Shown here one piece after another: positions 33,563-58,253 of a stretch of DNA of 64,000 bases; within the stretch, counting starts at the first letter, position 1, and each line of letters opens with the position of its first letter. The translations under genes and the position numbers were made by a program. The notes beneath the pieces are model-generated. The model did no database searches. It had not been told where the DNA came from and saw nothing but the letters and a program-made list of their open reading frames with translations. Location: contig NZ_JACOPN010000002.1 in NCBI RefSeq assembly GCF_014287875.1, positions 310,001 to 374,000 on the forward strand, given 5' to 3'. The DNA comes from Flintibacter faecis. GTDB lineage: Bacteria; Bacillota; Clostridia; Oscillospirales; Oscillospiraceae.

Positions 33563-34960
33563 TTATAAAGCTTTTGCCAGCTGCTTGAGCAGTGCGGCAG
33601 TTTCGGGATTTTTAAGCAGTTCCAGTATCTTCGCTGCATCACTTTCATCACTTTCAGTGACGGCAGTATCCGCAGTTTTAGGCTCTGTATCTTCAACAGG
33701 GTCAGGAGTCTTAGAGGAATAAAAAGCTTCCTCCAATCGCTGAGCGTTTATGCACCGATCCTCGTCGATGATGTGAGAATAGACATCCGCAACCATTTTA
33801 ACCTGAGCATGACCAGAGTCACCCTGGACTGATTTCATATCGCCGCCATTGAGTTTCAGCTTGTAGGTGATGCTGGAGTGGCGAAGAGAATGGAACACAA
33901 CATGAGGCAGTCCGTTTTCTTTGATAAGTTTATTGAAAGCACGGTTAATCACCTGACTTTCCATCGGACGGCCATTGCTGGAGCAAAAGACCAGGTTATT
34001 GTCGATGTATTCATCTCCAAACAGATCCATCAGCTCATCAATTTCTTTTTTTCTCTCTACCAGCATATAGGCAACTGTTTTCGGCAGGTACACGCGGCGA
34101 ATACTGGTTTTGGTTTTAGGCTCTTTCAGGACCAGAGCAGTATGGGTACTGGCTATGCAAGGTGGAAACTTCTTAATAACACCTTTGTCGCTCAAATCGT
34201 CCAATGCACCTCGTGTAACCCGTTGCAGCTCTTTGTTGACGAATATATAAGCTGAACCATTTTCTATGCTCTGTGGTGCAATATCAATGCAGTCCCAGGT
34301 AAGGCCCAGCATTTCGCCAATGCGTAAAGAGCAGGAGAACGCCAGATTTAAGGCAAGGGAGAGGATAGGATCATCACAGACTTCCATAGCCTTGCTCAGC
34401 GTTTCGGCAGTCCATATATCCCGTTCTTTATGTTCTTCTTTGGGAAGTGTCGCATTCAGGACAGGGTTACGGCTGATTAGTTCCCAACGCACCGCCTGAT
34501 TAAAGGCACTGCGAAGTAGCTTGTGAATTTCTCTTACTGTATGCGGGGTCAGATATTCGCTTGTGGGTTTGCGGTTGTTGACGCTTACCGTTTTCACAGA
34601 GAGCAGATCACGGTAATACTTATCCATCATCCTTGGAGTGATGTCGGATAGTAACATATCTCCGATAATAGGAGTTATGTAGTTTCTCGCCAGACCACGG
34701 CGGCTTTCATATGTTGACATTGCCCAGGTATTTACACCATAGATGGACATATATTCATCGAGCAGATCGTTCAGGGTCTTTGCCGTAGGAATAAAGAAGG
34801 TTCCAGAGTCCTGCTCATACTCAATTTGCTTTTTTCGTTTTTTTGCTTCTGCATTTGTGCTGAAGGTTTCCCAACGCTGTCTGCGTTTTCCGTTTTCATC
34901 TGTGTAATCATACACCACAGAATATTTGCTTTTACGCTTCACGATAGATGCCATTTTCAT
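33563..34960 (-). CDS. Tyrosine site-specific integrase
   Basis: 465-residue phage/ICE-type recombinase. The N-terminal AP2-like arm-binding domain begins MASIVKRKSKYSVVYDYTDE. The SAM-like core-binding domain spans about 65-170. The catalytic domain shows CSLRIGEMLGLTWDCID (Arg I) near residue 205, VFHSLRHSSITYKLKLNG (HxLRH) near 370, and VYSHIIDED with the likely Tyr nucleophile near 400. The last ~60 residues are an acidic tail. It lies 350 bases from tRNA-Arg(CCT) and should catalyse insertion and excision of the element. The ATG has AAAGGAG upstream. Confidence 0.93.
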   Translation of the reverse strand: MKMASIVKRKSKYSVVYDYTDENGKRRQRWETFSTNAEAKKRKKQIEYEQDSGTFFIPTAKTLNDLLDEYMSIYGVNTWAMSTYESRRGLARNYITPIIGDMLLSDITPRMMDKYYRDLLSVKTVSVNNRKPTSEYLTPHTVREIHKLLRSAFNQAVRWELISRNPVLNATLPKEEHKERDIWTAETLSKAMEVCDDPILSLALNLAFSCSLRIGEMLGLTWDCIDIAPQSIENGSAYIFVNKELQRVTRGALDDLSDKGVIKKFPPCIASTHTALVLKEPKTKTSIRRVYLPKTVAYMLVERKKEIDELMDLFGDEYIDNNLVFCSSNGRPMESQVINRAFNKLIKENGLPHVVFHSLRHSSITYKLKLNGGDMKSVQGDSGHAQVKMVADVYSHIIDEDRCINAQRLEEAFYSSKTPDPVEDTEPKTADTAVTESDESDAAKILELLKNPETAALLKQLAKAL

Positions 34961-39213: not shown

Positions 39214-39216
39214 GCG

Positions 39217-40348: not shown

Positions 40349-41227
40349 TCAGCGTCCTCCCGAAGCATAGTTTCCCATGTTGATGTCCAGCACCCCTCTG
40401 GGCGGCTGGATCAAGGCATCTTCATATTGGCACTTCCACTGGATCTCCCGGCACATCTGGCCATCCGCCACGCCGTCTATGGTTTCCCCATCCTCAATGG
40501 GGTTATCATGCTCCAGAATATAGGACGCTGCATTATAGGCGTGGTTTACCACCCAGTTGGGGTCCATGCCGTGGAAGTGGTACTGGAGATCCGGCAAAAA
40601 CAGGGTGCTCATGCCCACCGTGTCGATGAGCATATCCTCCGTGCCCTCGATGTTGAAGAAACGGGCATTGACGCCAAAGCGGATGAACCGATCCGGCCCC
40701 TCAATCTGATGTGAGCGCACATCCTCTGCCAGAAACAGCTTGCCGCAGTTCTGGAAATAGAACGCCTCACAGGTGGGGTACAGCTCTGCCAGAGCCTCCA
40801 GAAAGTCGGCATCCAGGTTGGCACGCTCCAGCGCTGGAAGCGCCGCAGTCAGCATATCGGTGGCCACCACCTGATATTTGCACTCCCGGAAGATCCGGTC
40901 ACGGTCTTCCTGGCAGTCCCACATCTGGCTCATCAGAAAGGCAACAAAGCCTTTGCCCTTGAACTTGTCGCATTTCATCACCATCAGCTGTACCGGGCAC
41001 TTGCCGTCCTGAAATTCCGCGACATGATCCAGGGCGGCAAAGCCGGCCATTTTCTTATCATAACAGAAGCACTCTGTTGATCCGATGTGCTTCTCCATTA
41101 TGGCAGTCATTTTTTCTTTATCCGGCATTTCTACCGGCTCTTTGAACAGCATCTGAATGAGATAGGGACCTCCGGGCTGGGGGCCTTTTTTGTCGTCCAG
41201 ATTTTGCTGGAAAGCTTTATTGCTCAT
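40349..41227 (-). CDS. DUF4261 domain protein (predicted immunity protein)
   Basis: 292 residues. The DUF4261 C-terminal signature is visible: LQYHFHGMDPNWVVNHAYNA then NPIEDGETIDG near residue 225-255. DUF4261 is found in neighbourhoods of polymorphic toxins and their immunity genes. A second DUF4261-type module lies inside the giant protein at 42914. ATG at 41227 follows AAGGAGG. Cytoplasmic; no signal peptide. Confidence 0.8.
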   Translation of the reverse strand: MSNKAFQQNLDDKKGPQPGGPYLIQMLFKEPVEMPDKEKMTAIMEKHIGSTECFCYDKKMAGFAALDHVAEFQDGKCPVQLMVMKCDKFKGKGFVAFLMSQMWDCQEDRDRIFRECKYQVVATDMLTAALPALERANLDADFLEALAELYPTCEAFYFQNCGKLFLAEDVRSHQIEGPDRFIRFGVNARFFNIEGTEDMLIDTVGMSTLFLPDLQYHFHGMDPNWVVNHAYNAASYILEHDNPIEDGETIDGVADGQMCREIQWKCQYEDALIQPPRGVLDINMGNYASGGR

Positions 41228-41239
41228 TTGGTTTCCTCC

Positions 41240-42019
41240 TTAATAATCAAGCAGGATAGGCACCTGCTGTTCCTCGGCAAACCGCATGGCCCGCCAGAAC
41301 ATGGAGAAGGCGAACTTGGCCAGGGATTGGGTGTCATACTGGGTGTGTTCCGGGATGTCTGCCTTGCTGTACTGTCCATCTGAGTCTACGGTTCCGTCTA
41401 CCGGGTATCCCTCCGTGTCTGCCCAGCCAAGGATGGTGTCCTCATCGGCCTGCCATGCCAGCTGGTTCAGCTTTTCCAGCTCCTTCCGCAGTCCGCCCAA
41501 GGTGGCGATAGCGGCGGTGTCATCGGTAGGCAAGGACCCTTGGAACAGAAAGCTGTCAGAAAGAGGGAGCCACCAGGTAGCCCCACGAAACAGGGACCAC
41601 ACCCGCTCCTCATCTGATGCAAGGCGGGCGACCAGAGGATGCTCCCCGAAGATCCAGTCCTTCTCCACGGTGGAAGGCACCGGTTCCTCGTATGTACGAC
41701 AGGCGGCCACCAGCAGCATAGCGCCAAAGGCATCCCAATCCGGCTTATCGGTGTAATAGGGCCGCTCGTTGTCCTCCGGCCATGGAGTGTAGGGCGGTTG
41801 GTTCGGCTGGGAAATGGCGGCTAAGATCTGATCCCGCCAGTTCTCCACCGCCGCCTGAACCTCGGCCGAGGACAGCTCCTCCTCGTTGTCGGCGGGTTCT
41901 CCATCCGGGGTGATGCGGTTGAAAGAGTATCCGTTTTCCTCCGCCCACTGCTGCACAACAGTTTTCCAGTTGTGAGAATAGTACCGGGTCAGCGTCCCGG
42001 CGTAGATGTCAAGTCCCAT
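41240..42019 (-). CDS. Uncharacterised conserved protein, probable immunity protein
   Basis: 259 residues, acidic and tryptophan-rich. It starts MGLDIYAGTLTRYYSHNWKT, a conserved-looking N-terminus seen in small cytoplasmic proteins of toxin-immunity loci. I cannot name a domain. ATG follows AAAGGAG. It is 12 bases upstream of the DUF4261 gene and in the same transcription direction as the whole cluster. Confidence 0.65.
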   Translation of the reverse strand: MGLDIYAGTLTRYYSHNWKTVVQQWAEENGYSFNRITPDGEPADNEEELSSAEVQAAVENWRDQILAAISQPNQPPYTPWPEDNERPYYTDKPDWDAFGAMLLVAACRTYEEPVPSTVEKDWIFGEHPLVARLASDEERVWSLFRGATWWLPLSDSFLFQGSLPTDDTAAIATLGGLRKELEKLNQLAWQADEDTILGWADTEGYPVDGTVDSDGQYSKADIPEHTQYDTQSLAKFAFSMFWRAMRFAEEQQVPILLDY

Positions 42020-42034
42020 AGTAATGTCTCCTTT

Positions 42035-42898
42035 TCAATCAAAATCCATCCAGACCAGGTGTTTTCCGCAGTGGAGGCACTGGAACAGATAGCATTGCAG
42101 ATGCCCGCCATTGACAGATTCCCGGATCATTTCTTTTTGCTCATCGTCCCACATCGGATCGTCCAGTACCTCCTCCAGCACACCCAGGGCCCGCAGTTCC
42201 CTGGCACCCACATGGCCCAGGTAGGCGCAGTAGTCGCCGCAGTGGGCGCGCCAGTATTCCTGCTGCCAGCCGGAGTAGCCGGGGGTGCGGTGGATCAGCT
42301 CGTCCAGCTTCTCCGGATCGTCTACACCATCATCCACAGAGAAATCATCTTGAAAACTACCGTCATATTTCCGGGCTGCTTCGCCGTTGGCGATGCACTC
42401 TGGGCACAGATATGCAATATCCTCCACGGCGTAAAAGGGGGCTGTATAGAAAATATGGGTCGTCTTGCCACAGCAGTCGCAGACAACGCCGTCTGCGGAT
42501 TCCTCAAAAGCCCCAGTTTCCAGAGGGTTTGGGTGATACCGGAAGGCGGGCAGGCCCAGCTGGGCCTGCCGTTCCTTCTCTTTCTGCTTTTCCTCCGGCG
42601 TTTTGGGCTTGGGGAGAGCATAATGATTGCCCCAGTTTTCCGCATAGTCCTTCAGCGTGCCCAGCCGCTTGAGGGTCTTTTTATCGGAACGATTTCCGAT
42701 TTGGCAGAGCAGTTCGTAGGCGTCCTTCTTAAAGTCCAGCAGGTCATATACATCCACCAGCACTTCCTTGGCCTGCTGATCCTCACTCTGCTCAAGTTCT
42801 TCCTTGAAGGTATATAGAGCGCGGACATTGTCTGGACCTTCATTGGTCGCAACAAACTGTTTTTTTAGTTCGATATAGGTTTTCTGATATTCTGTCAT
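42035..42898 (-). CDS. CbrC family protein (predicted immunity protein)
   Basis: 287 residues. The C-terminal ~185 residues are a CbrC (UPF0167) domain: LPAFRYHPNPLETGAF, CDCCGKTTHIFYTAPFYAVE, LCPECIANG, and C-terminal CLHCGKHLVWMDFD, with three CxxC pairs suited to zinc. The N-terminal ~100 residues are helical. E. coli CbrC is tied to colicin E2 tolerance. ATG at 42898 is preferred over the GTG inside the GGGAGG RBS. Confidence 0.85.
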   Translation of the reverse strand: MTEYQKTYIELKKQFVATNEGPDNVRALYTFKEELEQSEDQQAKEVLVDVYDLLDFKKDAYELLCQIGNRSDKKTLKRLGTLKDYAENWGNHYALPKPKTPEEKQKEKERQAQLGLPAFRYHPNPLETGAFEESADGVVCDCCGKTTHIFYTAPFYAVEDIAYLCPECIANGEAARKYDGSFQDDFSVDDGVDDPEKLDELIHRTPGYSGWQQEYWRAHCGDYCAYLGHVGARELRALGVLEEVLDDPMWDDEQKEMIRESVNGGHLQCYLFQCLHCGKHLVWMDFD

Positions 42899-42913
42899 TG
42901 GTCGCACCTCCCA

Positions 42914-45900
42914 TCAATCCCACCAGAAATACCAGACAGTGGACTGCCACAGGACATCTGCCAAGGAGCCAATGCTTCCATCCTCATTCTGATCCAGATC
43001 TGGGCAGAAGCCATATTGCTCCACAGCCACTTCCATAGCTCTTTCCTTGGAGATCGGAGTCGGAAGTTCAAACTCCAATTCATCGTGGCTCATGGCGGCA
43101 GGGATGGCACCATGCTGCTCGAACCAGTATTTCGCCACTGCCATCAGGTCCGGCGTGTCGGGGCACTCATTCCAATTTCCAAAGGGCAGATAGGCGAAGA
43201 TCTCCCAGGGGTTCTTGACCGGAATTTTGGCCAGAATGAGCGGATAGGTCATGTGGCTATCCGAATCCCAATAGCAGGAGAAGCGGTCATTGTCATAGCC
43301 GCCCTCCATCTCGCCCAGGACTTCCGCCTCCCAGTCCATGTCATCGTCCTCGGCTTCTTCCTTGCGCTGGCCGGTCAATTCCTCCAGAACCGCCTTTCCG
43401 TCCTTGATGGGAGCGGAGAGCATCTTCTTTCGATACTCCTCTACTGTTTTGAGGTCAAATTCGTAGAAGTCCGCATTGTGCTCCGGATCGGCGTTCATCA
43501 CCAGACACTCCAACAGCGTTTCATCATCCGCCTTGATGAGCACGGGAACAAAGCCCTCCCGTACCCCCAGCCGCTGGGCGTAGCTGTATGCCGACATGAT
43601 GGGGTCATCATCTGCCATGGATGGGAAATAGGTACACTCGCAGTCCAGATACTCCATGATGGCCTGAGCAACCTCGGAAGGCTCCAGCGTATCCTCGTCG
43701 AAGTCCTGTCCCTGCCAGTTTTCAAACCGTTCCCCGATCACCTCTGCCATAGCCTGATAGTAGTCCTCGTCAAAGGGGATGAACAGGTATGCCTCCTGCT
43801 GGAACTCATTGGAGTGATACCGTTCCGGGCCGAAGAAGCGGAGGGCATTGTCGTCAATGTCGGCGGGATAGTAGGGACTGTCGCCCTCTCCGTAGTAATA
43901 GCCGGCAAAGGCGCGACCTTGCTGATTGAACAGCACAGAGAACAGGCAGCCGTCCAGCTCATCTTGGATGAATGCCCTCAGGTCTACGCTGGCAGGGTCG
44001 GCTTTGACCTGTTTGACCACTTCGCCGTGTTCTTTCAGGAAGTCCTCGCCCATCAGTTCGTGCTCCATGCACCAGCGCAGGTAGATGGCCATGTGGTTAT
44101 AAGCGTTGATGGGGTCAATTGGCAGTTCCTTCTCCTCAATGCTCTCGATATGATAGGAGGCATCGTCCATCTCACCGTCAAAATCATCATTGGAAAGGGT
44201 GCCACGGGTGATAGCATCCTGACGATCAGGCTCCACCACAAAGCTGATGCCGTTCATTTTGCCCAGCAGGGCGTCCGCGTCATGGGCCAGCTTATATTCC
44301 AATTCATCCCGGTAGAGAGGAATCACCTGATAGAAGTTGACCTCCTCGCCACTCGGCAGGATGCAGACCTCGCTGCCATCTTCGGTATCCTGGGGACCAG
44401 TCAGAATGGCGGCGCACAGCTTTGTGTCCTTTGCAAAATCCTCCTCATTGTCCATGGTATGGCCGAAGCCCAGCCAGGTATCGCTGGCAATGGGAAGGCG
44501 GGCCAAGGATTTCAGCAGGCGGATGGGCCAGTACCACTTTTCGTCTTTCATGGACTCCTGATCCAGCTTCCAGTCCGCAGGCAGGGCAATGGCCAGCTCC
44601 GCCCGCTCCAGCTTATATTCCGCCAGTTCCTCCGGCACATTCATCCGGTGAGCGCCCATGCCCATGGTGACCAGGGTGCAGTAGTCCCGCTCCTCAGAGG
44701 GCGGCACCACGCAGATGTCCACATGGATGTCGGGAGAAACCAGCTCATGGAACACATTCTCGAACTTGCCGAAATACTGCTCAATGTGCCCCTCGACGGC
44801 TTCCATCTCCTCCTCGGTGTAGACTTCGGGATTACTGAATTCTTCCTCATCCTGCGTGTCATCATTGTCTGAGTGGTCGCAGCTGTCATCCTCCGGATCT
44901 CCCTTTATAGGCTCGTAACCGATCTTCAGGGTCATCTGTTCCTCCGGCAGGGAGACGCCGGGGCTGCGGGTGATGGTGTGCTTATCGTCCGCAGAAAAAC
45001 CGATGGTCTCGCCGTCTTGCAGTGTCACATCACACGCCAGCACATAGGAGGCAAGGCTGGCCAAAAAGTCCCGCAGTTCCTCCGGCTCAGCGTCGGTGTT
45101 CAACACCTCCATTTCCTCCTTGCCAAACACATCCATGCCGTAGGTGTAGCCGTTTAGGCCCCCCTCGCTCCGGTACAGGCCGAACCAAACCCAGTTGAAG
45201 ATGGGCAGTTCGTCCTCTTTGAGCATATCGGCAAGGCCCTCATAGAAACGAGGCTCAAATACCACGCCGCTGGTGTAGACACCGGTGGCGTATTTCTGCT
45301 TGCAGCACACTGCCATCGCCTTGGTGAACAGCTTGCCCCGTTCCAGCAGTTTTTCCTCCTCGCCCAATACAGCCACCATGATATGGGCCTTGTGCGCTTT
45401 GGCCACCTCTACGGCCTCTGGCCACATATAGTTGTTTTCGGCGTTGATCTCCGCTTCATTGTCCGGGATGTGACCGTGGAAGAGTGTCACGATCAGCATC
45501 ATGCCGCCGACCCGCATTACCACAGCGTCATCGCTGTTCTCATCATCTTCGTCGCCCTCAGCCGGCTCATCGTCCACGATGCCCCATTCTTCCCGCAGAT
45601 CTCGAATCAACTGCTCCTTGTCCCACTCTGCTTTGGAGAGGAGCACAGATCCGGCAAAGGAACCCTTATGGTCGGTTTCCTCCTCGTCGGCATCATCCTC
45701 AAGACCCTCTACATCTTCATCCGGATCATAGAGGGATTCATGCTCCAGTCCGCGGATAAATTCCTCAAAGCTATCTGCCAGATGGGTAATTTTATAGTCA
45801 TTTTCCTGATCCACATGGACTACCGCAGGCTCTCCCTGGGGACCGCAAGCCCGGTAGTCCAGGAAAATCATATCGTGTCCGGCGCTTGGACAGTCGCAGA

Positions 45901-48900
45901 TGGCCACGCCGATGGCAGGATACTCCCACTCATCGATCATAAACTGGCTGCCCAGCTCTCCACAGAGGGAGCAGCTCTTTTCTCGTCCGATGCCGAAAAT
46001 GCCGGTGATGGCCACATGATCATCTGACCAACAGGTAGGCTCATCGCAGGGATAGCAGGTGTTCACCGGAATACCGCCGTTGTGCTGCTTCATCAGCCAG
46101 ATGTAGGCAGCGGGCAGCTTGTAGCCCAGTTCCTCCTCCACGCTGGCAATCAGCTCATCGGAAGGCGGATCACTGACATATTCTTTCAGTGCATACCAAT
46201 TATCATCCCAGAAGTTGGTGAGGTCGAAGCCCTCAAATGGAGTATCACCGGGCACGAATTTGGCCTTCTTCTTCCGGCTGCGCTGGCGTTTCCGAATCTC
46301 CGCCTTACACTCCCGAATTACTGCCGGGGCATTTTCATCCTCCGGGTCCAACTCTGCCCACCGCTGAGCGTAGGGAATGGCCTTTTCCTCCTGGCCGTAG
46401 AGATACTGATAGCCATAGGCCATCCGCATATTCCACTCCGCCTTGTCCTGGCCTTCCTCCCGGACGGACTCCAGCACCTCAATGGCCCTCAGAAGGGCTT
46501 TGTCTCCCTTGGATTTCAAAGTACCTTCGTCATGGTCCCCGATGATGGCGTAGTTCTCCAGTGCACGGGCCAGGGCGTAGGCGGTGCGGTAGTTCCTCCA
46601 GTTCTCCGGGATGGCATTCAGTGCCTGGATACAGCGGGTGTACTCGTCTTCGTCGTTCCACTGCTCCAGCTGAGCGAAGAATGCTTCGGCGTTCTGTTGG
46701 GTGTAAGGAATATAGTCCATGCCCGTCAGCGTTTCGTCCAACTCGTCATCCTGATTCTCAGTTTCTGTCCCATCATCTTGTTGCTTTAGGGATACAGAAC
46801 CGGCTTCACGGCGGAAGGTGTGGAAGATGGCCCATGGGATGTCCGTGCCTTCAAAGAACTCTTTCGCCATGTTCAGCGCCTCTTGGATGTCCCAGGCGAT
46901 GAAGTCCACATAGCCACAGTAGAGGCCGGTAGCCCCGCCGGTGAGAGTGAGCACTTCCGAACCATCCCCGCCGGTGAGCACTTCCTCCAGTTTGTCCCGG
47001 AAGTCGAAAATTTTCTGACTGCCTTCCTCCTCCCGCAGGGTATCCAGGGGATAGCAGAAGAAGCCCGCCACCGCGCCGTCGGCATGGAGATCGTCCATAA
47101 AATCATTGTCGGCATTCAGATAGCCGTTGATGAGCGGCACACAGCAGGTGGAACCGGCCATTACATCCAGCCGCCAATCGGCGTCCGGGTCCTGTTTGGG
47201 TTCCATTTTGTAACCAAGGTAGCTCTCCAGATAGGCTTCCGGGTCGGTGGAGAGCTCCAGGCCCTGCTCCCGCAGTTTGTCGGGCAGCTGGGACAGGAGG
47301 AAGGACGGCTCTGCCTTGGGTTCCTCCAGCACATCAAAGCTGTCTATGTATCTCATGTGGGAGATCTCGCCCAGCACTTGGTCGGTGAAGGTAGTGAGCA
47401 TCCACCAGGCCCGGCCTTCTTCCTCCCGGAGCATAGGCAGCAGCTTTTCGCAGTAGGCGGAGATGGCGAAGCTGTTTTCACCCTGCTCCTCCAGCCAGAT
47501 CTGCACATCCTCCCCGGAGATGTCCCAGACATCCTCAGTACGCAGGCCGATGTTCTGGAGAGGCTGACGGCCCACAAGGATATTCCAGTGCTCCAGCACC
47601 TCCTTGGGGGCGTGCTTCTGGAAGTAGACCAGCTCAAACAGTTTGACCTTATCCCCCTCCGGGGTGAGGATCAGCTCATGCTTTTCGCCGTTGAAGCCAA
47701 TCTCGAAGGAAATCTCGTCAAAAACCAAATTCAGGGTTTCCTCCATTTGGGCCACGATCTCCGCACCGCGGGTGTGATCTTTGTCCTCGTCCATCATCTG
47801 GCGCAGCTCTGCTTCCATCTCGGCAAAGGTTTCCCACCAGTTCTCTGTCCGTTCCCGGAAGCACTCCCAGAACTGCGGCAGAGAAATACCCTTTTTGCAC
47901 GAGTCAATTAGTTCCTCCATGTCCTGTCGGGTGTTGAGCTTAGGATCATCACCGGGATGCAGTTCCAGAGCTTTTTCAAAATGCCGCAGAGCGCGGCCCT
48001 CCTGATCCAGATAATAATAGGCATACCCCATACGGAAATTCCAGGAATAAGTATCTCCCAGTTCCTCCTCATGGGACTGCATCAGTTCCAGTGCCTGGTG
48101 AAGCAGCTTCCTTCCCTCCGGCTCGCTGGAGTCCGCCAGATTGTTGTAGGCGCGGGCCAGCTCCATATCCATTTCCGGGGTACGCTCCTCGGCAGAGATT
48201 GCCTCCAGTGCGTCAACGATTTTCTGGTGTTTGTCCTCCTCATGCCACTTCTGGCACTGCTTCAAAATATCCATATCAGGGTCCTCCTCGTCCTCATCTG
48301 GTTTCCAGTCTTTGATCTGCTGGAACACGCCATTTTCATCCCGCTCAAAGGCGCAGGGAGCGGGGATGTTCAGCAAAGGGATGATGTCGGGATCGTCATT
48401 GCAGATCGTGTTCAGCTTGTAGATCCCGGCGTTGTTAGGGTCGTCCATGTACTCGTCGCTCTCATCACCGGCGGTAAAGCGCCAGCCGCTGTCCCAGCCG
48501 CCGTCCGGCTCCTCCCTGTAGCAGTAGCCCACCTTGCGGCCCTCTACTGTGATGCGGTTGGTGGCGATGCAGCCATCGGCGCCCTCCCAGTCGGGAAGCA
48601 GATGTTTCACATCTTCCGCCTTTACATGGTAGTCCCGGTTGCGGCCGGAGGCTTCGTACAGCTCTTTCCGCAGCGCCTCCACATCCCGAGCCATCTCCTG
48701 GATCTCCTCATCGTCCATCATCTCACTGAGGTCATATTCCAGCGGATTCTGGGCAAAATCCGCCAGTGCCTTGTTCATGGCGTCATGCTCCTCTGGCGTG
48801 ACGGTGATGCGGATGCGGCGGGCAGGGGTGTTGTACTCGTCCAGATCCTGAAGGTTTACACTGCCACTGACGCTGCACTCCAGCAGGATGGCGGCCAGAT

Positions 48901-49606
48901 CGGTGACCACATCAATGGCGAAGTGGAAGTCCATCTCCACGCCATCGGAGTGTGTAAACTCCAGATACTCCACGGTTTGGCGGAAGTCCCAGCTCTGCTT
49001 GTCCAGACCGATCTTGGCGAAAATCTCGTTGAGGGGGATCTCCTCCTTTTTCTGATCCTCTAAAAATGCCACAAGGTTCAGACTGTCATCAGAACCGCCA
49101 ATAAAGTTGCCCCAGTATTTTTTGATATACATTTGTCGTGCCTCCTGTTCTGAATCCAGTCGATCAATGAGCTGATTCAAGTGTTCCAACCACGCAGGAG
49201 CGATCTCACCGCTGTCCTCGTTCTTCCAAAGATCCACAATCTCACGGATGCCGTCCTCGTCCGGCACCTCGTTTTTGATGTCGGTGAGCTGCCGCAGCAG
49301 GAAAGCAAGGGCTTCTTTGGATGCTGTGAAACCGGTGACTTTATCCCATATAGCTTCTTCATGATCGTAGTCCAGTTTGCTGTTATCCTTCCATTGGAAA
49401 TACAGCTCCGCCAGAGCCATCGCAGTATTGTCAAAGAGGAAGTCGATTTGTGAGAAGTCAGATCCCAGCATGACTTCCTCTTTCATCAGTTCGATCATCT
49501 CGCCCAGATCCATTACCGGATGCTCCGGTACATATTCATTTTTGAGGATGTCCAGTACATCCAACCCTTCGTCACGCTCTAATGCTTTTATGCCCCATGC
49601 TCCCAT
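42914..49606 (-). CDS. Giant 2230-residue polyimmunity fusion protein
   Basis: One uninterrupted frame, cytoplasmic and very acidic. Modules in order, by remembered signatures: DUF4259-like ~1-150 (MGAWGIKALERDEGLDVLDI); unknown ~190-320; DUF2185/Imm33-like ~325-415 (CIATNRITVEGRKVGYCYRE, GWRFTAGDESDEYMDDP); TPR-like ~450-570; unknown ~580-945; TPR-like ~965-1100; SMI1/KNR4 (SUKH) ~1125-1290; DUF4261-like ~1318-1565; SUFU-like ~1597-1795; unknown ~1826-1965; DUF4253-like ~2010-2215. Acidic linkers (1295-1315, 1345-1360, 1570-1595) separate modules. Fusions of several immunity domains are known from polymorphic-toxin loci, but this one is exceptionally long. It has no toxin, peptidase or membrane segment. 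ATG at 49606 follows AGAGAGG. Confidence 0.85.
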   Translation of the reverse strand: MGAWGIKALERDEGLDVLDILKNEYVPEHPVMDLGEMIELMKEEVMLGSDFSQIDFLFDNTAMALAELYFQWKDNSKLDYDHEEAIWDKVTGFTASKEALAFLLRQLTDIKNEVPDEDGIREIVDLWKNEDSGEIAPAWLEHLNQLIDRLDSEQEARQMYIKKYWGNFIGGSDDSLNLVAFLEDQKKEEIPLNEIFAKIGLDKQSWDFRQTVEYLEFTHSDGVEMDFHFAIDVVTDLAAILLECSVSGSVNLQDLDEYNTPARRIRITVTPEEHDAMNKALADFAQNPLEYDLSEMMDDEEIQEMARDVEALRKELYEASGRNRDYHVKAEDVKHLLPDWEGADGCIATNRITVEGRKVGYCYREEPDGGWDSGWRFTAGDESDEYMDDPNNAGIYKLNTICNDDPDIIPLLNIPAPCAFERDENGVFQQIKDWKPDEDEEDPDMDILKQCQKWHEEDKHQKIVDALEAISAEERTPEMDMELARAYNNLADSSEPEGRKLLHQALELMQSHEEELGDTYSWNFRMGYAYYYLDQEGRALRHFEKALELHPGDDPKLNTRQDMEELIDSCKKGISLPQFWECFRERTENWWETFAEMEAELRQMMDEDKDHTRGAEIVAQMEETLNLVFDEISFEIGFNGEKHELILTPEGDKVKLFELVYFQKHAPKEVLEHWNILVGRQPLQNIGLRTEDVWDISGEDVQIWLEEQGENSFAISAYCEKLLPMLREEEGRAWWMLTTFTDQVLGEISHMRYIDSFDVLEEPKAEPSFLLSQLPDKLREQGLELSTDPEAYLESYLGYKMEPKQDPDADWRLDVMAGSTCCVPLINGYLNADNDFMDDLHADGAVAGFFCYPLDTLREEEGSQKIFDFRDKLEEVLTGGDGSEVLTLTGGATGLYCGYVDFIAWDIQEALNMAKEFFEGTDIPWAIFHTFRREAGSVSLKQQDDGTETENQDDELDETLTGMDYIPYTQQNAEAFFAQLEQWNDEDEYTRCIQALNAIPENWRNYRTAYALARALENYAIIGDHDEGTLKSKGDKALLRAIEVLESVREEGQDKAEWNMRMAYGYQYLYGQEEKAIPYAQRWAELDPEDENAPAVIRECKAEIRKRQRSRKKKAKFVPGDTPFEGFDLTNFWDDNWYALKEYVSDPPSDELIASVEEELGYKLPAAYIWLMKQHNGGIPVNTCYPCDEPTCWSDDHVAITGIFGIGREKSCSLCGELGSQFMIDEWEYPAIGVAICDCPSAGHDMIFLDYRACGPQGEPAVVHVDQENDYKITHLADSFEEFIRGLEHESLYDPDEDVEGLEDDADEEETDHKGSFAGSVLLSKAEWDKEQLIRDLREEWGIVDDEPAEGDEDDENSDDAVVMRVGGMMLIVTLFHGHIPDNEAEINAENNYMWPEAVEVAKAHKAHIMVAVLGEEEKLLERGKLFTKAMAVCCKQKYATGVYTSGVVFEPRFYEGLADMLKEDELPIFNWVWFGLYRSEGGLNGYTYGMDVFGKEEMEVLNTDAEPEELRDFLASLASYVLACDVTLQDGETIGFSADDKHTITRSPGVSLPEEQMTLKIGYEPIKGDPEDDSCDHSDNDDTQDEEEFSNPEVYTEEEMEAVEGHIEQYFGKFENVFHELVSPDIHVDICVVPPSEERDYCTLVTMGMGAHRMNVPEELAEYKLERAELAIALPADWKLDQESMKDEKWYWPIRLLKSLARLPIASDTWLGFGHTMDNEEDFAKDTKLCAAILTGPQDTEDGSEVCILPSGEEVNFYQVIPLYRDELEYKLAHDADALLGKMNGISFVVEPDRQDAITRGTLSNDDFDGEMDDASYHIESIEEKELPIDPINAYNHMAIYLRWCMEHELMGEDFLKEHGEVVKQVKADPASVDLRAFIQDELDGCLFSVLFNQQGRAFAGYYYGEGDSPYYPADIDDNALRFFGPERYHSNEFQQEAYLFIPFDEDYYQAMAEVIGERFENWQGQDFDEDTLEPSEVAQAIMEYLDCECTYFPSMADDDPIMSAYSYAQRLGVREGFVPVLIKADDETLLECLVMNADPEHNADFYEFDLKTVEEYRKKMLSAPIKDGKAVLEELTGQRKEEAEDDDMDWEAEVLGEMEGGYDNDRFSCYWDSDSHMTYPLILAKIPVKNPWEIFAYLPFGNWNECPDTPDLMAVAKYWFEQHGAIPAAMSHDELEFELPTPISKERAMEVAVEQYGFCPDLDQNEDGSIGSLADVLWQSTVWYFWWD

Positions 49607-49648
49607 GTCGGCACCTCTCTTTCTTTATTTCGTATCAAGCTTCTATTG

Positions 49649-50623
49649 TCAATCATAGTTCTCCAACCGAATGATAGGCCGATAAAAGTCATAATCTCCG
49701 TTTAGTTCATTGTCCTCCTGCACTTCTGGCTTACAGTGGGGCGAACAGGGTAGGAAACCGAGAAATGGGCCCAGCCCACCGCAGATATTGCATCCGCCGT
49801 CACCGCCGCAGGTGGTAAGCCTATCAGCCTGCACCACTTCCCGCATATAGGGATCGTAGGCGATGGACAGGCCGAAGAAGTTGGGCTCCTCCATGTCATA
49901 GGGCCGGTTCTCATCCTCATCCATGTTCTCAAACCAGTGCAGACGCATGGAGTAGTCTAACTCATCTCCCCATGGAAACAGGGTCCGACACCCGCCGCCA
50001 CACAGGTAGGCCCACTCGTCCGCCGTGGGCAGGGAGAAGCCCCTGTTTTCCAGCATGGCAAGAAGCGCATCGTAGTCTGTGTGGTTATAGATACAGATCT
50101 GAAAGCCCTTTTCCGTCCGCTCAATGCGGGCCGACTGATGCAAGGTAAGACTGCTGCTGTCACTCCAGGCAAAATCACAGAATTCCTTCAGCCAGTCAGG
50201 GTGGACAGTCAGTCTGGGATCATCCATTTTGACTGGCTCCCAGTTAATTTCCTCCAGCTCCCGGCCCACCAGCATGGGTCCAATGGCCGCCTGCCGAACA
50301 GGAGCCATGCTTTCCCGAATCATCTCCTCCGGGTCCCGCTCCATTTCCCATTCTCGGAACAGATACTCCAATTCCTCCCGGCTCTCCTGATTCAATCCCA
50401 CGGCAAACTGCTCCCAGCCCAGGGTGACGGTATCGCCGGGGACAAAGACGAACTCCCGACCATCTTTCTTGAAGATGCCGGTGGTGCAGCTCTGGCCCCA
50501 GCGGTCAAAAGTATGTAGACCGAGAAAGGTCATATCATAACGGGCAGCCAGGCTCTCCATCAGCACCTGCTTCTCGATGTTTTCCATTTGATTGAATTGG
50601 GTGCGGAATAGTCTTTTGTTCAT
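49649..50623 (-). CDS. Uncharacterised protein with SUMF/FGE-like motif
   Basis: 324 residues. Residues ~195-220 (FSLPTADEWAYLCGGGCRTL then FPWGDELD) resemble the formylglycine-generating-enzyme/SUMF fold core (LPTEAEWEYA...FPWGD). A CGGDGGCNICGGLGPFLGF segment near 275 is glycine/cysteine rich. The fold is probably used as a binding scaffold here rather than as an oxidase, but this is a guess. ATG follows AGGAGG. Confidence 0.6.
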   Translation of the reverse strand: MNKRLFRTQFNQMENIEKQVLMESLAARYDMTFLGLHTFDRWGQSCTTGIFKKDGREFVFVPGDTVTLGWEQFAVGLNQESREELEYLFREWEMERDPEEMIRESMAPVRQAAIGPMLVGRELEEINWEPVKMDDPRLTVHPDWLKEFCDFAWSDSSSLTLHQSARIERTEKGFQICIYNHTDYDALLAMLENRGFSLPTADEWAYLCGGGCRTLFPWGDELDYSMRLHWFENMDEDENRPYDMEEPNFFGLSIAYDPYMREVVQADRLTTCGGDGGCNICGGLGPFLGFLPCSPHCKPEVQEDNELNGDYDFYRPIIRLENYD

Positions 50624-50634
50624 AACAAGTCCTC

Positions 50635-51045
50635 CTACAGCCTATCCAGGTTTTCCTGTAAATCGCCCTGCATCAAGTGCTGGGCAATGGCTTGGTTCAG
50701 TGCCTTATGGGGGTGATAGGCTGCCTGCTCTACATCGTGCAGGCACTCCTCCATCAATGCCTCCGGAGAAATGCCTTCCCGTTTGCCATAAAGATGGCCG
50801 AAGGCATAGCACACGGACTTGAGAAAGTCGAAAATATAGTCGTGATTTCCACGCATACTGGGCAGGTCGTTGAACGAGCCCATACCTCCGTATGCCCGAA
50901 GATGGTGGGCAACCTCCCGCCGCTGGTTCCAGTCCTGAATGTCCCGCTCCAACCAGTCGATCCAGTTTTGGAACTCTGGATGGTCTGCCAGAAGGATGGA
51001 GCGCAGACAGGTCAGAGCCTCGGTATAAATATCAGACTGTTTCAT
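50635..51045 (-). CDS. Small helical protein, DUF6966-like (predicted immunity protein)
   Basis: 136 residues, mostly helical. The motif AYGGMGSFNDLPSMRGNHDY near residue 52 resembles the GGMGSFNDL pattern I associate with DUF6966. ATG at 51045 overlaps the stop of the preceding gene (ATGA), so the two are coupled. Cytoplasmic. Family assignment is tentative. Confidence 0.6.
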   Translation of the reverse strand: MKQSDIYTEALTCLRSILLADHPEFQNWIDWLERDIQDWNQRREVAHHLRAYGGMGSFNDLPSMRGNHDYIFDFLKSVCYAFGHLYGKREGISPEALMEECLHDVEQAAYHPHKALNQAIAQHLMQGDLQENLDRL

Positions 51046-51992
51046 TGGCCATCGCTCCCCCCAATACCTCCATAGAGCACACCATCTTTTCCAAGGAACA
51101 ACATCCGGCTGCGAAGCAGGCTGCACTGCTCCACAGCGACCTTGTTTCCGTCACAGGTGGGAATAGCCTCCTGTTTTTTCCCAAGGTGATCACCATGAGC
51201 GGTAAGGAAGTAGAATTTATCCCGTTGCTGGTATCCGCCTTGAAACAGGAAGGTATTGCCGGACGGGGCAACAGAAAAAGCTCCGCTTCCTTCGATTGGC
51301 AGTTCAAATACAAAGTCCTCTTTGAAGTTCGTCCGCACCAGCCGGAATTCATCGTAATAATAAAACCACAGGTTTTCTTCTTCGTCCAGGCTGATGGCGT
51401 AGCAGTCATAGATGGAATAGTTCTCATTCTTCCAGAGAGGAGTTCCCTCCGATGTCCATGCAATCAGGCCGCAAGCACCCAGAGGTTCATCCCAACCGTA
51501 ATTACCAAATACACCTTCGTCAAAGTAGCTGGTAATGATGGTGCCATCTTTTTTTACCACACAGTCTTGAATGCCATCCCCCAGGCAGAAACGGGACAGC
51601 ACAGCTCCGTCCCGGCTGACGATCCAGGCGTTCTGGTCGGGGCCGTTTTCCCGATAGGCGCATCTTGCCCCCAGCAGGAGGAAGTGATCACCTGCGGGCC
51701 GCAAATAATGAAACTGGAACTTCAAGAGGCCAAGAGGAAACAGCGTCGTTTCCAGCACCCGCTGTTCCGCCCAATCCAGCTGGATTTCCACTGCGGTATA
51801 GGTGGAAGGAGTGCTGAGCCAGTCCTTACCCTGTGTTTCGGACGGCTGTTCCATGAGAAGATAGACTTTTCCATCCCTTGCCGTGAAAAAGTCTGTCACT
51901 TCTGTGCCCTCCAGATGTTTTTCCCGGCGCAGCTGGTCCAGGTCAATGATGGAGAACAACGGCAGATTTTTGGCTTTTATAGGTTTGTTCAT
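51042..51992 (-). CDS. Predicted beta-propeller-like protein, probable immunity protein
   Basis: 316 residues, rich in beta-strand patterns with repeated aromatic/Gly-Asp turns (AWIVSRDGAVLSRFCLGDGI, VVKKDGTIITSYFDEGVFGN, AISLDEEENLWFYYYDEFRL). This spacing suggests a WD40/NHL-like propeller of five to six blades. No signal peptide. It is 16 bases downstream of the DUF6881-like gene and coupled to the gene at 50635. No specific family recognised. Confidence 0.6.
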   Translation of the reverse strand: MNKPIKAKNLPLFSIIDLDQLRREKHLEGTEVTDFFTARDGKVYLLMEQPSETQGKDWLSTPSTYTAVEIQLDWAEQRVLETTLFPLGLLKFQFHYLRPAGDHFLLLGARCAYRENGPDQNAWIVSRDGAVLSRFCLGDGIQDCVVKKDGTIITSYFDEGVFGNYGWDEPLGACGLIAWTSEGTPLWKNENYSIYDCYAISLDEEENLWFYYYDEFRLVRTNFKEDFVFELPIEGSGAFSVAPSGNTFLFQGGYQQRDKFYFLTAHGDHLGKKQEAIPTCDGNKVAVEQCSLLRSRMLFLGKDGVLYGGIGGSDGQ

Positions 51993-52317: not shown

Positions 52318-52581
52318 TCATTTGAACCAATGCCACCCCGTCATGGTGCCGGTTACCTCATCTATCTGTATTGCAATATCATAATTGCCGCGACAGCCCA
52401 GCAAGGCCGCGAGATGATCGTTTTCCATAATCAAATCATAAAACTCAACCGCTATGTCTTGGAATTCCTTCGGAATTTCCAGTGCAGAGAAGAAATCCAC
52501 TGATTGAGCATTTTGGAAAAATTCAATGGCCGTTTTACTGCATTTTACTATAATCCCTGTTTGAGTGGTCAAATCTTTCAT
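52318..52581 (-). CDS. 87-residue protein of unknown function
   Basis: No family recognised. An acidic alpha/beta protein starting MKDLTTQTGIIVKC and ending TMTGWHWFK. ATG at 52581 overlaps the stop of the preceding gene (ATGA). Its first four residues (MKDL) match those of the upstream gene product, which may be chance. Probably another immunity-type protein by position. Confidence 0.55.
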   Translation of the reverse strand: MKDLTTQTGIIVKCSKTAIEFFQNAQSVDFFSALEIPKEFQDIAVEFYDLIMENDHLAALLGCRGNYDIAIQIDEVTGTMTGWHWFK

Positions 52582-53018
52582 GCTTTCGCAACCTCGCTCA
52601 TGTTCAGATACATCCCCATCGTTTTTTCATTGTCACAGGCCGCCCGGATCATCTTGGACAGCAGCATCAAATCGTCGATGTATTGGGAGTACACGCAGAA
52701 CACATCCTCGTCAGAGTCGAAGTGAAACAGATCCACGCCGCTGTTATTTTCCTCGAACTCCTGGATCACGCCCCGGACCAGCCGCTCCCAGTCTCCGCTG
52801 CTTCCAGTCAGTCCCAGCCGACGGAATACTTCCGTCCGGAATCCATTGTTGATTTTCAGCAGAAGGGAGAGCGCATAGGGGTGGTGGGGAATGAGAAAGA
52901 ATGGCGCAATCTGCTCCGGCTTCACCCAGATTTTGAAGGGCGGACGCGGGTCAGGTATCCAGGGCAAGATTTCCCATTCGTCCTCCGGCCGGTTTCCGTA
53001 TTGGCAAAGGTCTTTCAT
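52578..53018 (-). CDS. Imm51-like small protein (tentative)
   Basis: 146 residues. The C-terminal half (VDLFHFDSDEDVFCVYSQYI then DDLMLLSKMIRAAC) resembles immunity protein 51, with an FDSEAGMFCVYS-like core. The N-terminal half (DEWEILPWIPDPRPPFKIWV) is not familiar. ATG at 53018 has AAAGGAG. Coupled by ATGA to the next gene. Confidence 0.5.
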   Translation of the reverse strand: MKDLCQYGNRPEDEWEILPWIPDPRPPFKIWVKPEQIAPFFLIPHHPYALSLLLKINNGFRTEVFRRLGLTGSSGDWERLVRGVIQEFEENNSGVDLFHFDSDEDVFCVYSQYIDDLMLLSKMIRAACDNEKTMGMYLNMSEVAKA

Positions 53019-53045: not shown

Positions 53046-54002
53046 TTAATCCTGCTCTCGATAACTGGCTTCAATGTCAATGAACCGCACATACACGGCG
53101 CAGATTTTGCCCTTGGCGTCATACCCGAAGTAGACAGGATAGTAACCATCCCCCCAGCCGGAGGCAAAGATGGGCAGGTTGCAGTCCGTGCCCGGCACTG
53201 TCCAGTTGAGCCAGTCGCCGCAGTCCCCCTGATATTTGGGGTAGGCTTTGGCGTTTTCTTCCAGAAGATCGCAGAACAGGTCGTTGTAGGGGTCGATGTC
53301 CGGGTCTTCTTCTAAACGCTTGGCCCAGTATGCCTTGAAGGCCGCCTGGGTCTGGATGTCCGCGACACAGCCCATCCCGGCGTCTACGCCAAAGCCAAAA
53401 TACTCGTCCTCTCCCAGTTCCTCGTCCAGATCCTCGTTGCCCACCATGCCCAGCTCATGGCGGACAGGCTTTTCCCGGCTGACCTCCACCTTGACGCAGG
53501 CGTAGCGGTCGCCGTATTGTTCGCTGGGTACCACGCAGATTTTCACGGGATAAGTTCCGGCGGGGATCGTTTGAAGGAACGGCAGAGTGTCCTCCAGTTC
53601 CACCAGCGGATCACAGGCGAAGATCTGCCCGGTGGGGAAATGGACGACACCGATGTCCAGTACATCCACCGCCATGTTCCCAATCACTTTCTCTGTGAAA
53701 TGGGCCTCCAAGTCATCTTTACAGGTCAATTTATCCTTGATTGCTTCGTATTTGTTCAACCATTCAGTTGTAGGCATATCAGTTTCCTCCTGTTGGTTCT
53801 GTTTTTTGATATACACGCTCTTTGAGCCATCCCAGTAGCAGTTCACACACCGGCCATCCTGAAAATGATGGTCACAATTCGGGTAGCCATAGAGAACATG
53901 TGCACATTCCGGGCACAGCCCCATCATCTGTGAGGAGCCTTTGAAAAACAGGCTTCCGCACTCATCACAAACGGCCAGTTCTTTTTCTGCCATAGGGTTC
54001 AC
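53046..54002 (-). CDS. DUF4241 domain protein with N-terminal zinc ribbon
   Basis: 318 residues. Residues ~10-65 hold zinc-ribbon cysteines (CDECGSLFFKG, CPEC, NCDHHF, CVNCYW). Residues ~100-315 are DUF4241-like (GWGDGYYPVYFGYDAKGKIC near 285; IPAGTYPVKICVV near 150). DUF4241 is common among predicted immunity proteins. GTG at 54002 overlaps the upstream stop (GTGA); an in-frame ATG at 53993 is the alternative. The ribbon-DUF4241 fusion is unusual. Confidence 0.75.
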   Translation of the reverse strand: MNPMAEKELAVCDECGSLFFKGSSQMMGLCPECAHVLYGYPNCDHHFQDGRCVNCYWDGSKSVYIKKQNQQEETDMPTTEWLNKYEAIKDKLTCKDDLEAHFTEKVIGNMAVDVLDIGVVHFPTGQIFACDPLVELEDTLPFLQTIPAGTYPVKICVVPSEQYGDRYACVKVEVSREKPVRHELGMVGNEDLDEELGEDEYFGFGVDAGMGCVADIQTQAAFKAYWAKRLEEDPDIDPYNDLFCDLLEENAKAYPKYQGDCGDWLNWTVPGTDCNLPIFASGWGDGYYPVYFGYDAKGKICAVYVRFIDIEASYREQD

Positions 54003-54325
54003 CAGTCCCGTTCCCGGATGGCCTCCTCGGTGTCAATAGGAATGCCAAACCACTCCAGAATGTAGGCCACGGTTGCCGCGATACATTCACGGGCCACCGT
54101 TTCGATCTCGCTGTCGTGCTCGTCAAACTCCTCCTGGAAATCATTGATGCCGCAGACCGCCTCGTCCAGCGTTTCCTGCACCACTTCGGTGTCGGTTTCG
54201 CCACTCTCCAACAGGTCGATGACCTTCTGAAGCTCGTCCTTTACCTTGTCTACCAAAAAAGCAGGATAGTAATTGTCCTGATACATCTCGTCCAGCAGTT
54301 TGTAATTGGGGTCAAATGCTTTCAT
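53999..54325 (-). CDS. DUF5713 family protein (predicted immunity protein)
   Basis: 108 residues. LLDEMYQDNYYPAFLVDKVK near residue 10 and VIDLLESGETDTEVVQETLD fit DUF5713, a small all-helical family found in immunity loci. ATG at 54325 follows AAAGGAG. Coupled to the DUF4241 gene by a 4-base overlap. Confidence 0.75.
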   Translation of the reverse strand: MKAFDPNYKLLDEMYQDNYYPAFLVDKVKDELQKVIDLLESGETDTEVVQETLDEAVCGINDFQEEFDEHDSEIETVARECIAATVAYILEWFGIPIDTEEAIRERDW

Positions 54326-54341
54326 AGGGATTGCTCCTTTC

Positions 54342-54887
54342 TCATTCAAACATCAAGCCGTATGATTCGGTCAAGCTGCCATCATCCTCATGGAAAATAC
54401 ACTGATACAGAGGCTGGCGCTGTGTTGCTTTGCGGAATCGCTCCAGAACCGGAGCCAGCGGCTCACCAGTAGGGATGCCGAGGGCATCAGCTACCCGCCG
54501 CCAGCTGTCCATATCCATATCTTCCAAGTTACAGTTGCGCTGTCTCTGCCCATACTCCTCCAGTGTTTTGGAATCCACATACTGCTTTGCATCACAGTAG
54601 TCGTGCCAGCAGATACAGCTCACAAGCAGGGAAAAGAGATCATCCATGCTCTCAGCCAGACGGCCAGCCTCCCCTTCGCTGCTGTAATATCCAATGGAAC
54701 CATCTTCCAACAGGTGGTATTCTCCGCCGGAGCCATCTCTGGCAAAGGCCATGCCGGGCATTGAAAAGGTGCATCGGCCTTCCGCGTCATCCCGCGGGGA
54801 CAACTCATCCAGCAGGAAGAAGTCAAACAGCGAATCAAATTCATCCGCCAAATCAGGGTTTTCGTGCAATATCTTCAAATAGTCCAT
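54342..54887 (-). CDS. Uncharacterised acidic protein, probable immunity protein
   Basis: 181 residues. The middle segment GGEYHLLEDGSIGYYSSEGE is like the strand-turn region of SUKH-type or similar immunity proteins, and SICWHD-type aromatic residues follow. No firm domain. ATG follows CGGAGG. Seventeen bases upstream of the DUF5713 gene. Confidence 0.6.
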   Translation of the reverse strand: MDYLKILHENPDLADEFDSLFDFFLLDELSPRDDAEGRCTFSMPGMAFARDGSGGEYHLLEDGSIGYYSSEGEAGRLAESMDDLFSLLVSCICWHDYCDAKQYVDSKTLEEYGQRQRNCNLEDMDMDSWRRVADALGIPTGEPLAPVLERFRKATQRQPLYQCIFHEDDGSLTESYGLMFE

Positions 54888-56321: not shown

Positions 56322-57161
56322 TTACCCCTCAATGTTGGCAGTTTTGAGGCCCTTCTTCAAGGAACCGTAGACCGTCACCGCATGGTCGGTGAACATCTCG
56401 TCGCAGTCAAACCAGGCGGTGAAGCTGCCGCCGGAGGTGACGGATAGGCTGGTCATGCTGATCCGCCGGTCCAGCTCTTCCTCTGTGATGGGATTGGTTT
56501 CCGGATTGCGGGGATTTTCCTCATCCTGGGAGAGCCAGTCGTTGGCCAGCCCGGTCAGGTTCTTGGCTGCAAGCTCCCGCATGGCCTTGTCCCAGGTTTC
56601 ACAGTCGGCCAGCAGCTTCTTGGCGGCACTGCGGGCGCGGGTCCAGGAGGGCTTGCTCTCGGCATTGACCTCCAGAGAAAGGCTTACACCCTTTCCGCAC
56701 CACTGGATTTCTCCCTCGAAGGTATCATAGTCCTTGTCCAGCTTCAGTTCACCCAGCACCTGGTCCTGGATCACCACCGGCTTGTGGTACTCGTCCAGAA
56801 CGGCTTGAAGTTCCGGACAGTCCTCGTGGGCCTTGACCACCTGGGAGATACACCAGGGCCACGACACCAGATCCTTTGCCCATTCTTCTTTCATCCGGCG
56901 GATCTTCAGGCGGCAGATCTGCTCGTTTTGAAAGCGTTCCCAGCCCTTTTCGCTGTGACGCTCCTCATCGGTGACCGGCCACTCCAGCCGCTCCTCTTTG
57001 GTGCTGACCTTGCCGGTGTCACAAAATACCACGCCCAGCGTCACAACGGTCATTTCCCAAAAGTTGCCCCTGTTGTTATATCCGCCCCCGATGCAGCGAT
57101 TGATCAAAGCGACCACTTCCTGCTCCTCGGACTCGTACATCTCATAAAATTCTTCAAACAT
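56322..57161 (-). CDS. DUF2262 domain protein (predicted immunity protein)
   Basis: 279 residues. DUF2262 features are VLGELKLDKDYDTFEGEIQW near residue 135 and the C-terminal WFDCDEMFTDHAVTVYGSLK. The N-terminal ~120 residues are a helical extension. ATG follows AAGGAG. It sits 13 bases from the DUF2004 gene and 12 bases from the ankyrin gene. Confidence 0.78.
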   Translation of the reverse strand: MFEEFYEMYESEEQEVVALINRCIGGGYNNRGNFWEMTVVTLGVVFCDTGKVSTKEERLEWPVTDEERHSEKGWERFQNEQICRLKIRRMKEEWAKDLVSWPWCISQVVKAHEDCPELQAVLDEYHKPVVIQDQVLGELKLDKDYDTFEGEIQWCGKGVSLSLEVNAESKPSWTRARSAAKKLLADCETWDKAMRELAAKNLTGLANDWLSQDEENPRNPETNPITEEELDRRISMTSLSVTSGGSFTAWFDCDEMFTDHAVTVYGSLKKGLKTANIEG

Positions 57162-57173: not shown

Positions 57174-58253
57174 TTATTCCTCAAACTCGCCCTCAATCAT
57201 CCCGTTCAGATACCGGCCGGGATCTGCGATGAAGTCATCCCATTTGGCCAGAGAGTGGAATTCCTCATGCTCGATGTCCAGATACCACAGCTTTTTGTCC
57301 CTGGGGCTCCACAGCAGCAGGTAGTCGCTGTAATTGTCCATGGCCGCCATGAGGGAGAGCAGCTTCTTCCGTTTCCAGGTCATCTCCTGCACATCCATGT
57401 AGGCGTACAGCTCCGCCCATTTCACCCATTCCTGCTCCGGGAATTCCAAACGCAGGGGGCCGGTTTTCAAGTATTCCACCAACTTGGCGGGCAGTTTATA
57501 TGGCATGAGCTGCCGGGCCTTTTCCTGTTCGTTGTGCCAGTCCTCCGGTTCCAGGGCTTTTAAGTAGTCGGCCAGCTCCTGATTTTTGTTCTGCACCGCC
57601 ACGGTGTAAGGCCGGTCGCCGTATTTGTCGGCAATGGTGATGTCGGCTCCCTGTTCCACCAGCCAGCGCACCATGGAGAAATTGTTGGAGCGGGCGGCCT
57701 CGGTGACAGGGGTGGAGGCGTAAGGGAACACCATGTCCGGCTTGTGGTAATTGATGTCTGCCCCTTTTTCCAGAAGCAGTCGGGCAAGTTTGGCATTGCC
57801 CTCGGACACAGCGGCCCGGAATGCCTCGCCGCCAAACTTATCCACTGTGATCCCAGCCTGCTCCAGCACCGGGATATTCTCCGGGCGCTTGCCCCAGCGT
57901 ACTTCCTGAAAGGCCCGCTCTTTCTGCTTCGGGCTGAGTTTTGCGGCCTGTCCAGCAAAGAGCGCCACCACCTCCGGCCCACAACAGCGGGCGGCAGTGA
58001 GCAGCAGGGGCTGTTCCTCTGCCAGACCGGGATCAGCTCCATGCTCCAGCAGGAAGTGGATCATGGGCACATCATTCCGAAAAACCGCGATCTCCAGTGG
58101 TGTGAGTTTGATATACTCGCTGAGCTGAATGGGGTCATCTAAATCCAGACCGCCCTGGAGCAGTACCTCCAGCTTGGAAGTGTCATAGTCACAAATGGCG
58201 GCAGCCGTTTCCGGGAGGGTCTCCCAGCGGCCAATATATGCAATTTGGTACAT
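57174..58253 (-). CDS. Ankyrin repeat protein
   Basis: 359 residues. Ankyrin units occur across about residues 40-230 (TPLEIAVFRNDVPMIHFLLE HGADPG; AVSEGNAKLARLLLEKGADI; SNNFSMVRWLVEQGADITIA). The last 130 residues are a non-repeat tail rich in Trp and Leu. Ankyrin proteins serve as protein-binding immunity proteins in polymorphic-toxin loci. ATG follows GTAGGTG. Confidence 0.85.
   Translation of the reverse strand: MYQIAYIGRWETLPETAAAICDYDTSKLEVLLQGGLDLDDPIQLSEYIKLTPLEIAVFRNDVPMIHFLLEHGADPGLAEEQPLLLTAARCCGPEVVALFAGQAAKLSPKQKERAFQEVRWGKRPENIPVLEQAGITVDKFGGEAFRAAVSEGNAKLARLLLEKGADINYHKPDMVFPYASTPVTEAARSNNFSMVRWLVEQGADITIADKYGDRPYTVAVQNKNQELADYLKALEPEDWHNEQEKARQLMPYKLPAKLVEYLKTGPLRLEFPEQEWVKWAELYAYMDVQEMTWKRKKLLSLMAAMDNYSDYLLLWSPRDKKLWYLDIEHEEFHSLAKWDDFIADPGRYLNGMIEGEFEE

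Follow-up and report, generated by a model that had tools for sequence, protein, structure and literature searches.

In a stretch of 64,000 nucleotides of Flintibacter faecis (assembly GCF_014287875.1, contig NZ_JACOPN010000002.1, positions 310,001 to 374,000; hereafter the window), we analysed an intact open reading frame (ORF) of 2230 codons that occupies 42914-49606 on the minus strand, with its start side at 49606 and no internal stop. The encoded chain is a member of the polyimmunity proteins, a kind known since 2012, and is cargo of an integrated mobile element. It probably acts as a polyvalent immunity protein of the cytosol, within a 17-gene polyimmunity operon; no signal peptide is evident in the chain when judged by eye. 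The immunity role is proposed because of the chain's family content, the further immunity-type genes of the operon and the occurrence of several of its modules as free genes, which together support the multi-domain immunity protein suggested by a first-pass annotation of this DNA.

Pfam families follow one another along the chain in the order DUF4259, Imm68, Imm33, TPR, an unnamed stretch (residues 571-985, module E or “X”), SUKH, DUF4261, SUFU, DUF7832 and DUF4253 (Table 1). This amounts to about nine immunity-type units, the unnamed module included, plus two TPR blocks, of which the second (module F, residues 1003-1125) is 37.5% identical to the first (module D) over 80 aa. Imm68, Imm33, SUKH and SUFU, all above Pfam cut-offs, are immunity families (Zhang et al. 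2012, PMC3482391), so that the chain holds the at least two immunity domains per polypeptide that mark a polyimmunity protein; by sequence it is of the heterogeneous type with unrelated domains, as the families differ and sequence comparison found no significant similarity between modules other than the TPR blocks. The first-pass list of families (DUF4259, Imm33/DUF2185, TPR, SUKH, DUF4261, SUFU, DUF4253) was recovered in full, but had overlooked Imm68.

The single frame proposed at first pass is confirmed by the intact ORF, by full-length homologs and by selection. A homolog search scored 7990 candidates and retained 4137 proteins at E <= 0.001; details were taken for the top 120 by score, and each of these best 120 is 2228-2232 aa long and matches over its full length at 95-97% identity, with all three organism-named entries among them being Faecalibacterium. 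The same architecture also recurs in a set of 65 related loci (individually labelled L0xx or L1xx), 14 of which contain all 12 segments of the chain, L056 carrying the last segment in a separate ORF. Pooling 91 pairs among 14 chains (the window and 13 of the 65 loci), the ratio of nonsynonymous to synonymous substitution rates (dN/dS) is 0.07-0.20 across the 12 segments, indicating purifying selection on every one of them. Because full-length homologs exist and dN/dS stays in this range throughout, a joining error in the frame is ruled out.

The chain lies among 17 co-directional genes (40349-59186), with 14 of the 16 gaps at most 42 bp and the other two 585 and 328 bp; this is the tandem, same-orientation, short-gap arrangement of a polyimmunity locus. 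The 16 further genes are immunity-type or unnamed, and 8 of the 17 are without a named family. Several units found in the chain also occur outside it. Of 19 compared chains, 10 have module A as an ORF of its own, 156 residues long, with a stop at position 157 and an end one codon ahead of the following ATG; in the other nine and in the window it is fused. The A/B joint seems to be genuinely polymorphic. In other genomes, TPR+X (D-E), X alone (about 380 aa), DUF4261 (H), SUFU-Imm33 (I-C) and DUF4253 (K-L) exist as free genes. Among 19 loci where D-E or E is free, six have other modules adjoining within the short flanks examined. In the opposite direction, the free operon gene at 49649-50623 matches the chain N-terminus in L080 and also in L109, where a contig end cuts the chain; of the free gene at 55805-56332, 98 residues match the chain end in L043 at 50% identity. 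Judged from sequence, the chain thus appears to behave as a fused operon, with the parts of operon and chain interchangeable.

Whole modules are missing from 6 of the 19 compared chains, with joints in or near linkers: SUFU in L062, L065 and L073 (1575 to 1804/1806), SUKH in L079 and L092 (residues 1113-1307), and Imm68-Imm33 in L059 (residues 156-439). Module-to-module nucleotide identity to the window ranges from 73.7 to 99.8% within a single pair (with L053) and from 72.5 to 100% over 13 full chains. Segmentation placed 2-15 change points per pair and 772 in all over the 91 pairs; linkers show a mild enrichment, with a rotation p of 0.0185 that becomes 0.18 once clusters are merged. These module-wise shifts in identity and the change points therefore indicate frequent recombination, in which modules are lost whole and replacement is not strictly cassette-wise.

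An alternative, which we regard as unlikely, is that the TPR+X core (residues 445-985) is the working centre of an integrated scaffold, the other domains being adaptors that link it with toxins or a host partner (e.g. a chaperone or protease). TPR+X is kept in nearly every chain examined (exceptions away from contig ends are L050 and L112), and TPR blocks precede differing units (TPR-X, TPR-SUKH, TPR-SUFU-Imm33). However, whole modules are lost while the rest stays, in L025-L029 X forms a gene of its own with no TPR, and module A is fused or separate among chains of similar identity. As to the broad antitoxin scaffold envisaged at first pass, the module losses and free-gene versions favour exchangeable units on a string rather than a single integrated scaffold, despite the general retention of TPR+X.

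The element that carries the operon is integrated at tRNA-Arg(cct), beside the tmRNA gene (32333-32700), and includes a tyrosine integrase gene (33563-34960) 5.4 kb away from the operon, which lies within the examined flank in 5 of 29 loci at 99-100% identity. GC content in 2-kb windows is 0.56-0.69 left of the element as against 0.41-0.57 inside. A related genome, taken to be AP018533, matches 29.6 of the 31.0 kb of the window's element part, split over five pieces with 92.9-99.2% nucleotide identity. Between the two, entire genes have been gained or lost, at joints that by eye lie between stop codons and ribosome sites. The AP018533 chromosome has another copy of the locus at a different place, and this copy is more diverged. 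Between 32736 and 33214, four tandem partial copies of the tRNA-Arg 5' half precede the intact tRNA-Arg(cct), which may mean that integration took place here repeatedly. In OY725843.1 (Subdoligranulum variabile), whose label as plasmid 9 is questionable, the element likewise meets dissimilar DNA at a tRNA-Arg.

Carriers of 12-segment chains are Faecalibacterium, Neobittarella, Hungatella, Holdemania (Erysipelotrichia) and four assemblies classed to order or family. Full chains therefore span two classes, Clostridia and Erysipelotrichia, at 90-97% identity in the best segment, while any match at all is patchy (44 of 99 related genomes); recent horizontal transfer of the chain is the plain reading. 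Two genomes each hold two chains with differing module sets or alleles, namely Anaerotruncus colihominis CP102255 (L059 without Imm68-Imm33, L092 without SUKH) and AP018536 (L074, L075). Three chains of 92-96% identity (L076, L101, L061) break off prematurely, within SUKH or past DUF4261, and are apparently truncated forms.

Under the preferred reading of a polyvalent immunity protein, each module would most likely bind independently and block a single class of toxin arriving from other bacteria, with nucleases as the best guess for the targets of SUKH, SUFU and Imm33, and a recipient of the element would gain resistance to many attackers at once. According to the tables of PMC3482391, these three families act mostly against nucleases of polymorphic toxins. 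The chain would arise from, and trade parts with, the surrounding tandem immunity operon, through in-frame joining of neighbouring genes, loss of entire modules and allele replacement by homologous recombination. We infer that toxins are bound, what the targets are, that one single chain is expressed, that the modules work independently in the cell and in which direction the fusions went. A further-reaching proposal, which we hold only tentatively, is that a single evolving, mobile, class-crossing system of gut Firmicutes exists in two states, as immunity operon and as polyimmunity protein; its units would switch between free and fused, alleles would be reshuffled and the multi-toxin repertoires of recipients would differ, the A/B joint being the transition caught in the act.

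Several results weigh against the polyvalent immunity reading. The main text of PMC3482391 does not name DUF4253, DUF4259 or DUF4261, and an immunity role for these families would therefore be by association; module X has no family and no convincing fold match. No cognate toxin was found, and none of the 17 operon ORFs belongs to a toxin family, although an unrecognised toxin is possible because 8 of them have no Pfam family above cut-off. At E <= 0.001, LXG was found in 0 of 99 related genomes, and other delivery markers are scarce (WXG100 in 2, Mu F in 12 and RHS in 9 of 61 genomes); 28 Mu F and RHS loci with short flanks encode no homolog of a module or island gene. Records with matches to the modules comprise 73 plasmid and 10 phage records, and of ten plasmid or phage neighbourhoods inspected only one is an integrase-headed immunity locus (Parabacteroides), in which a gene accompanied by Tdi1-domain genes is 62% identical to module G. 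In two others an annotated HNH endonuclease, its toxin nature unproven, adjoins a SUFU or SMI1 gene; the rest show no toxin beside the homolog, and the closest plasmid homolog of SUKH (63.8%, Saccharobesus) is without such an immunity-locus context. Finally, breakpoints fall along the entire chain with only mild enrichment at linkers.

It is improbable, more so than the scaffold alternative, that the modules instead sense or block phage products, or stem from immunity genes borne by phages. AbiEii-type and MazF/PemK-type genes are part of the gene content of the same element, and 10 of 50,697 phage records contain partial homologs (<60% identity), among which are SUKH genes carried by SPbeta-like phages and a homolog of TPR-X. 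Yet none of those records reaches 80% coverage of the chain, six peptide patterns were unmatched in IMG/VR contigs, PADLOC gave no match in the chain at E 0.001, and the family content is that of immunity to polymorphic toxins. In eukaryotes, SMI1/KNR4 and SUFU have housekeeping roles in the cell wall or in signalling. A comparable housekeeping scaffold here, which the Pfam names of SUKH and SUFU would suggest, is slightly less probable still, as the chain is patchily distributed cargo of a mobile element, its modules are gained and lost, and its operon holds other immunity families. Least credible, and already refuted for the whole chain, is the fusion of neighbouring genes by sequencing or assembly error, for which the separate module A in 10 of 19 relatives could be cited but against which stand the fused, full-length state of the best 120 homologs, the fused form in other loci and a dN/dS far under 1 along the whole chain.

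Across 29 of the 65 loci, the gene before the chain is kept in 28, Imm51 in 27 and the UPF0167/CbrC-like gene (42035-42907), which lies directly downstream of the chain, in 25. Just downstream of the operon are genes for an ImmA/IrrE-type peptidase, an HTH protein and a WYL regulator (38091-40179), accompanying the operon in 11, 13 and 14 of the 29 loci, respectively; they form a possible control switch.

Table 1. Positions of the chain, its modules, the other operon genes and element landmarks in the window.
Feature	Position	Strand	Remark
Whole polyimmunity chain, 2230 aa	42914..49606	-	
Module A, DUF4259, residues 1-156	49139..49606	-	Pfam weak here, above cut-off in three relatives
Module B, Imm68, residues 159-318	48653..49132	-	145.5 bits
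Module C, Imm33/DUF2185, residues 319-444	48275..48652	-	121.7 bits
Module D, first TPR block, residues 445-570	47897..48274	-	Pfam
Module E (“X”), residues 571-985	46652..47896	-	No Pfam family
Module F, second TPR block, residues 1003-1125	46232..46600	-	Similarity to module D
Module G, SUKH/SMI1-KNR4, residues 1126-1300	45707..46231	-	SUKH_6, 84.6 bits
Module H, DUF4261, residues 1301-1572	44891..45706	-	Pfam
Module I, SUFU, residues 1590-1805	44192..44839	-	161.6 bits
Module J, DUF7832, residues 1806-1940	43787..44191	-	115.1 bits
Modules K-L, DUF4253 gene unit, residues 1941-2230	42917..43786	-	Pfam spans 2125-2230
Free DUF4261 gene, operon	40349..41227	-	Pfam
Operon gene without family	41240..42019	-	Kept in 23/29 related loci
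UPF0167 family gene	42035..42907	-	Pfam above cut-off; CbrC colicin E2 tolerance model below NCBIfam cut-off
Operon gene without family	49649..50623	-	Free in window, chain-fused in L080 and L109
DUF6966 gene	50635..51126	-	
Operon gene without family	51042..51992	-	
Imm51 gene	52578..53018	-	
DUF4241 gene	53046..54002	-	
DUF5713 gene	53999..54349	-	
Operon gene without family	54342..54887	-	
Two genes without family	55216-55815 and 55805-56332	-	
DUF7021 + DUF2262 gene	56322..57161	-	
Ankyrin-repeat gene	57174..58253	-	
Two genes without family	58261-58743 and 58644-59186	-	
tRNA-Arg(cct), left end of element	33138..33214	+	
Tyrosine integrase	33563..34960	-	Pfam; Xer models only below NCBIfam cut-offs
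MobA/VirD2-type relaxase	60968..62380	-	

These observations suggest that polyimmunity proteins originate by fusion of a polyimmunity operon, and point to a multi-toxin resistance chain that may be widespread among gut Firmicutes, Faecalibacterium included; the natural fused and unfused pairs are suited to probing the value of fusion. Mobile arrays of orphan immunity genes are also known from gut bacteria in the form of the acquired interbacterial defence (AID) arrays of Bacteroidales, which act against type VI effectors. The likeness to AID arrays (PMC13288982, PMC10470768) is read from array and mobility and from the 62% identity of module G to the Parabacteroides gene; the difference is that the carriers here are Firmicutes and the units are fused into a chain. 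The closest known counterparts are the polyimmunity proteins of Firmicutes described by Zhang, de Souza, Anantharaman, Iyer and Aravind (2012, PMC3482391; e.g. gi 160893617 of Clostridium sp. L2-50), in which as many as 10 immunity domains occur, in some cases together with TPRs; with about nine units and two TPR blocks in the present chain, the first-pass view that the module number is remarkable finds no support in that form. Shared with them, as far as they are described there, are the Firmicutes hosts and the combination within a single polypeptide of immunity domains that are unrelated (SUKH, SUFU, Imm33 and Imm68, along with TPRs). Their operons usually lack toxin genes, and no toxin gene is recognisable among the 17 ORFs here, of which eight have no Pfam family above cut-off. 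A literature search, judged by title and the start of the abstract, found no later paper treating this chain. The interchange of free genes and modules, the mosaicism within chains and the spread across classes are undescribed in section 39 and further passages of PMC3482391. With the heterogeneous polyimmunity loci of the same section, several of which adjoin a XerC/D-type recombinase gene, the operon shares tandem genes in one orientation with short gaps, a tyrosine recombinase on the same DNA and variability between relatives, but here about nine units are fused into one chain. That paper also remarks that polyimmunity proteins might be missing from bacteria having extended polyimmunity loci, whereas here the chain lies inside a 17-gene locus, and protein and locus are one.

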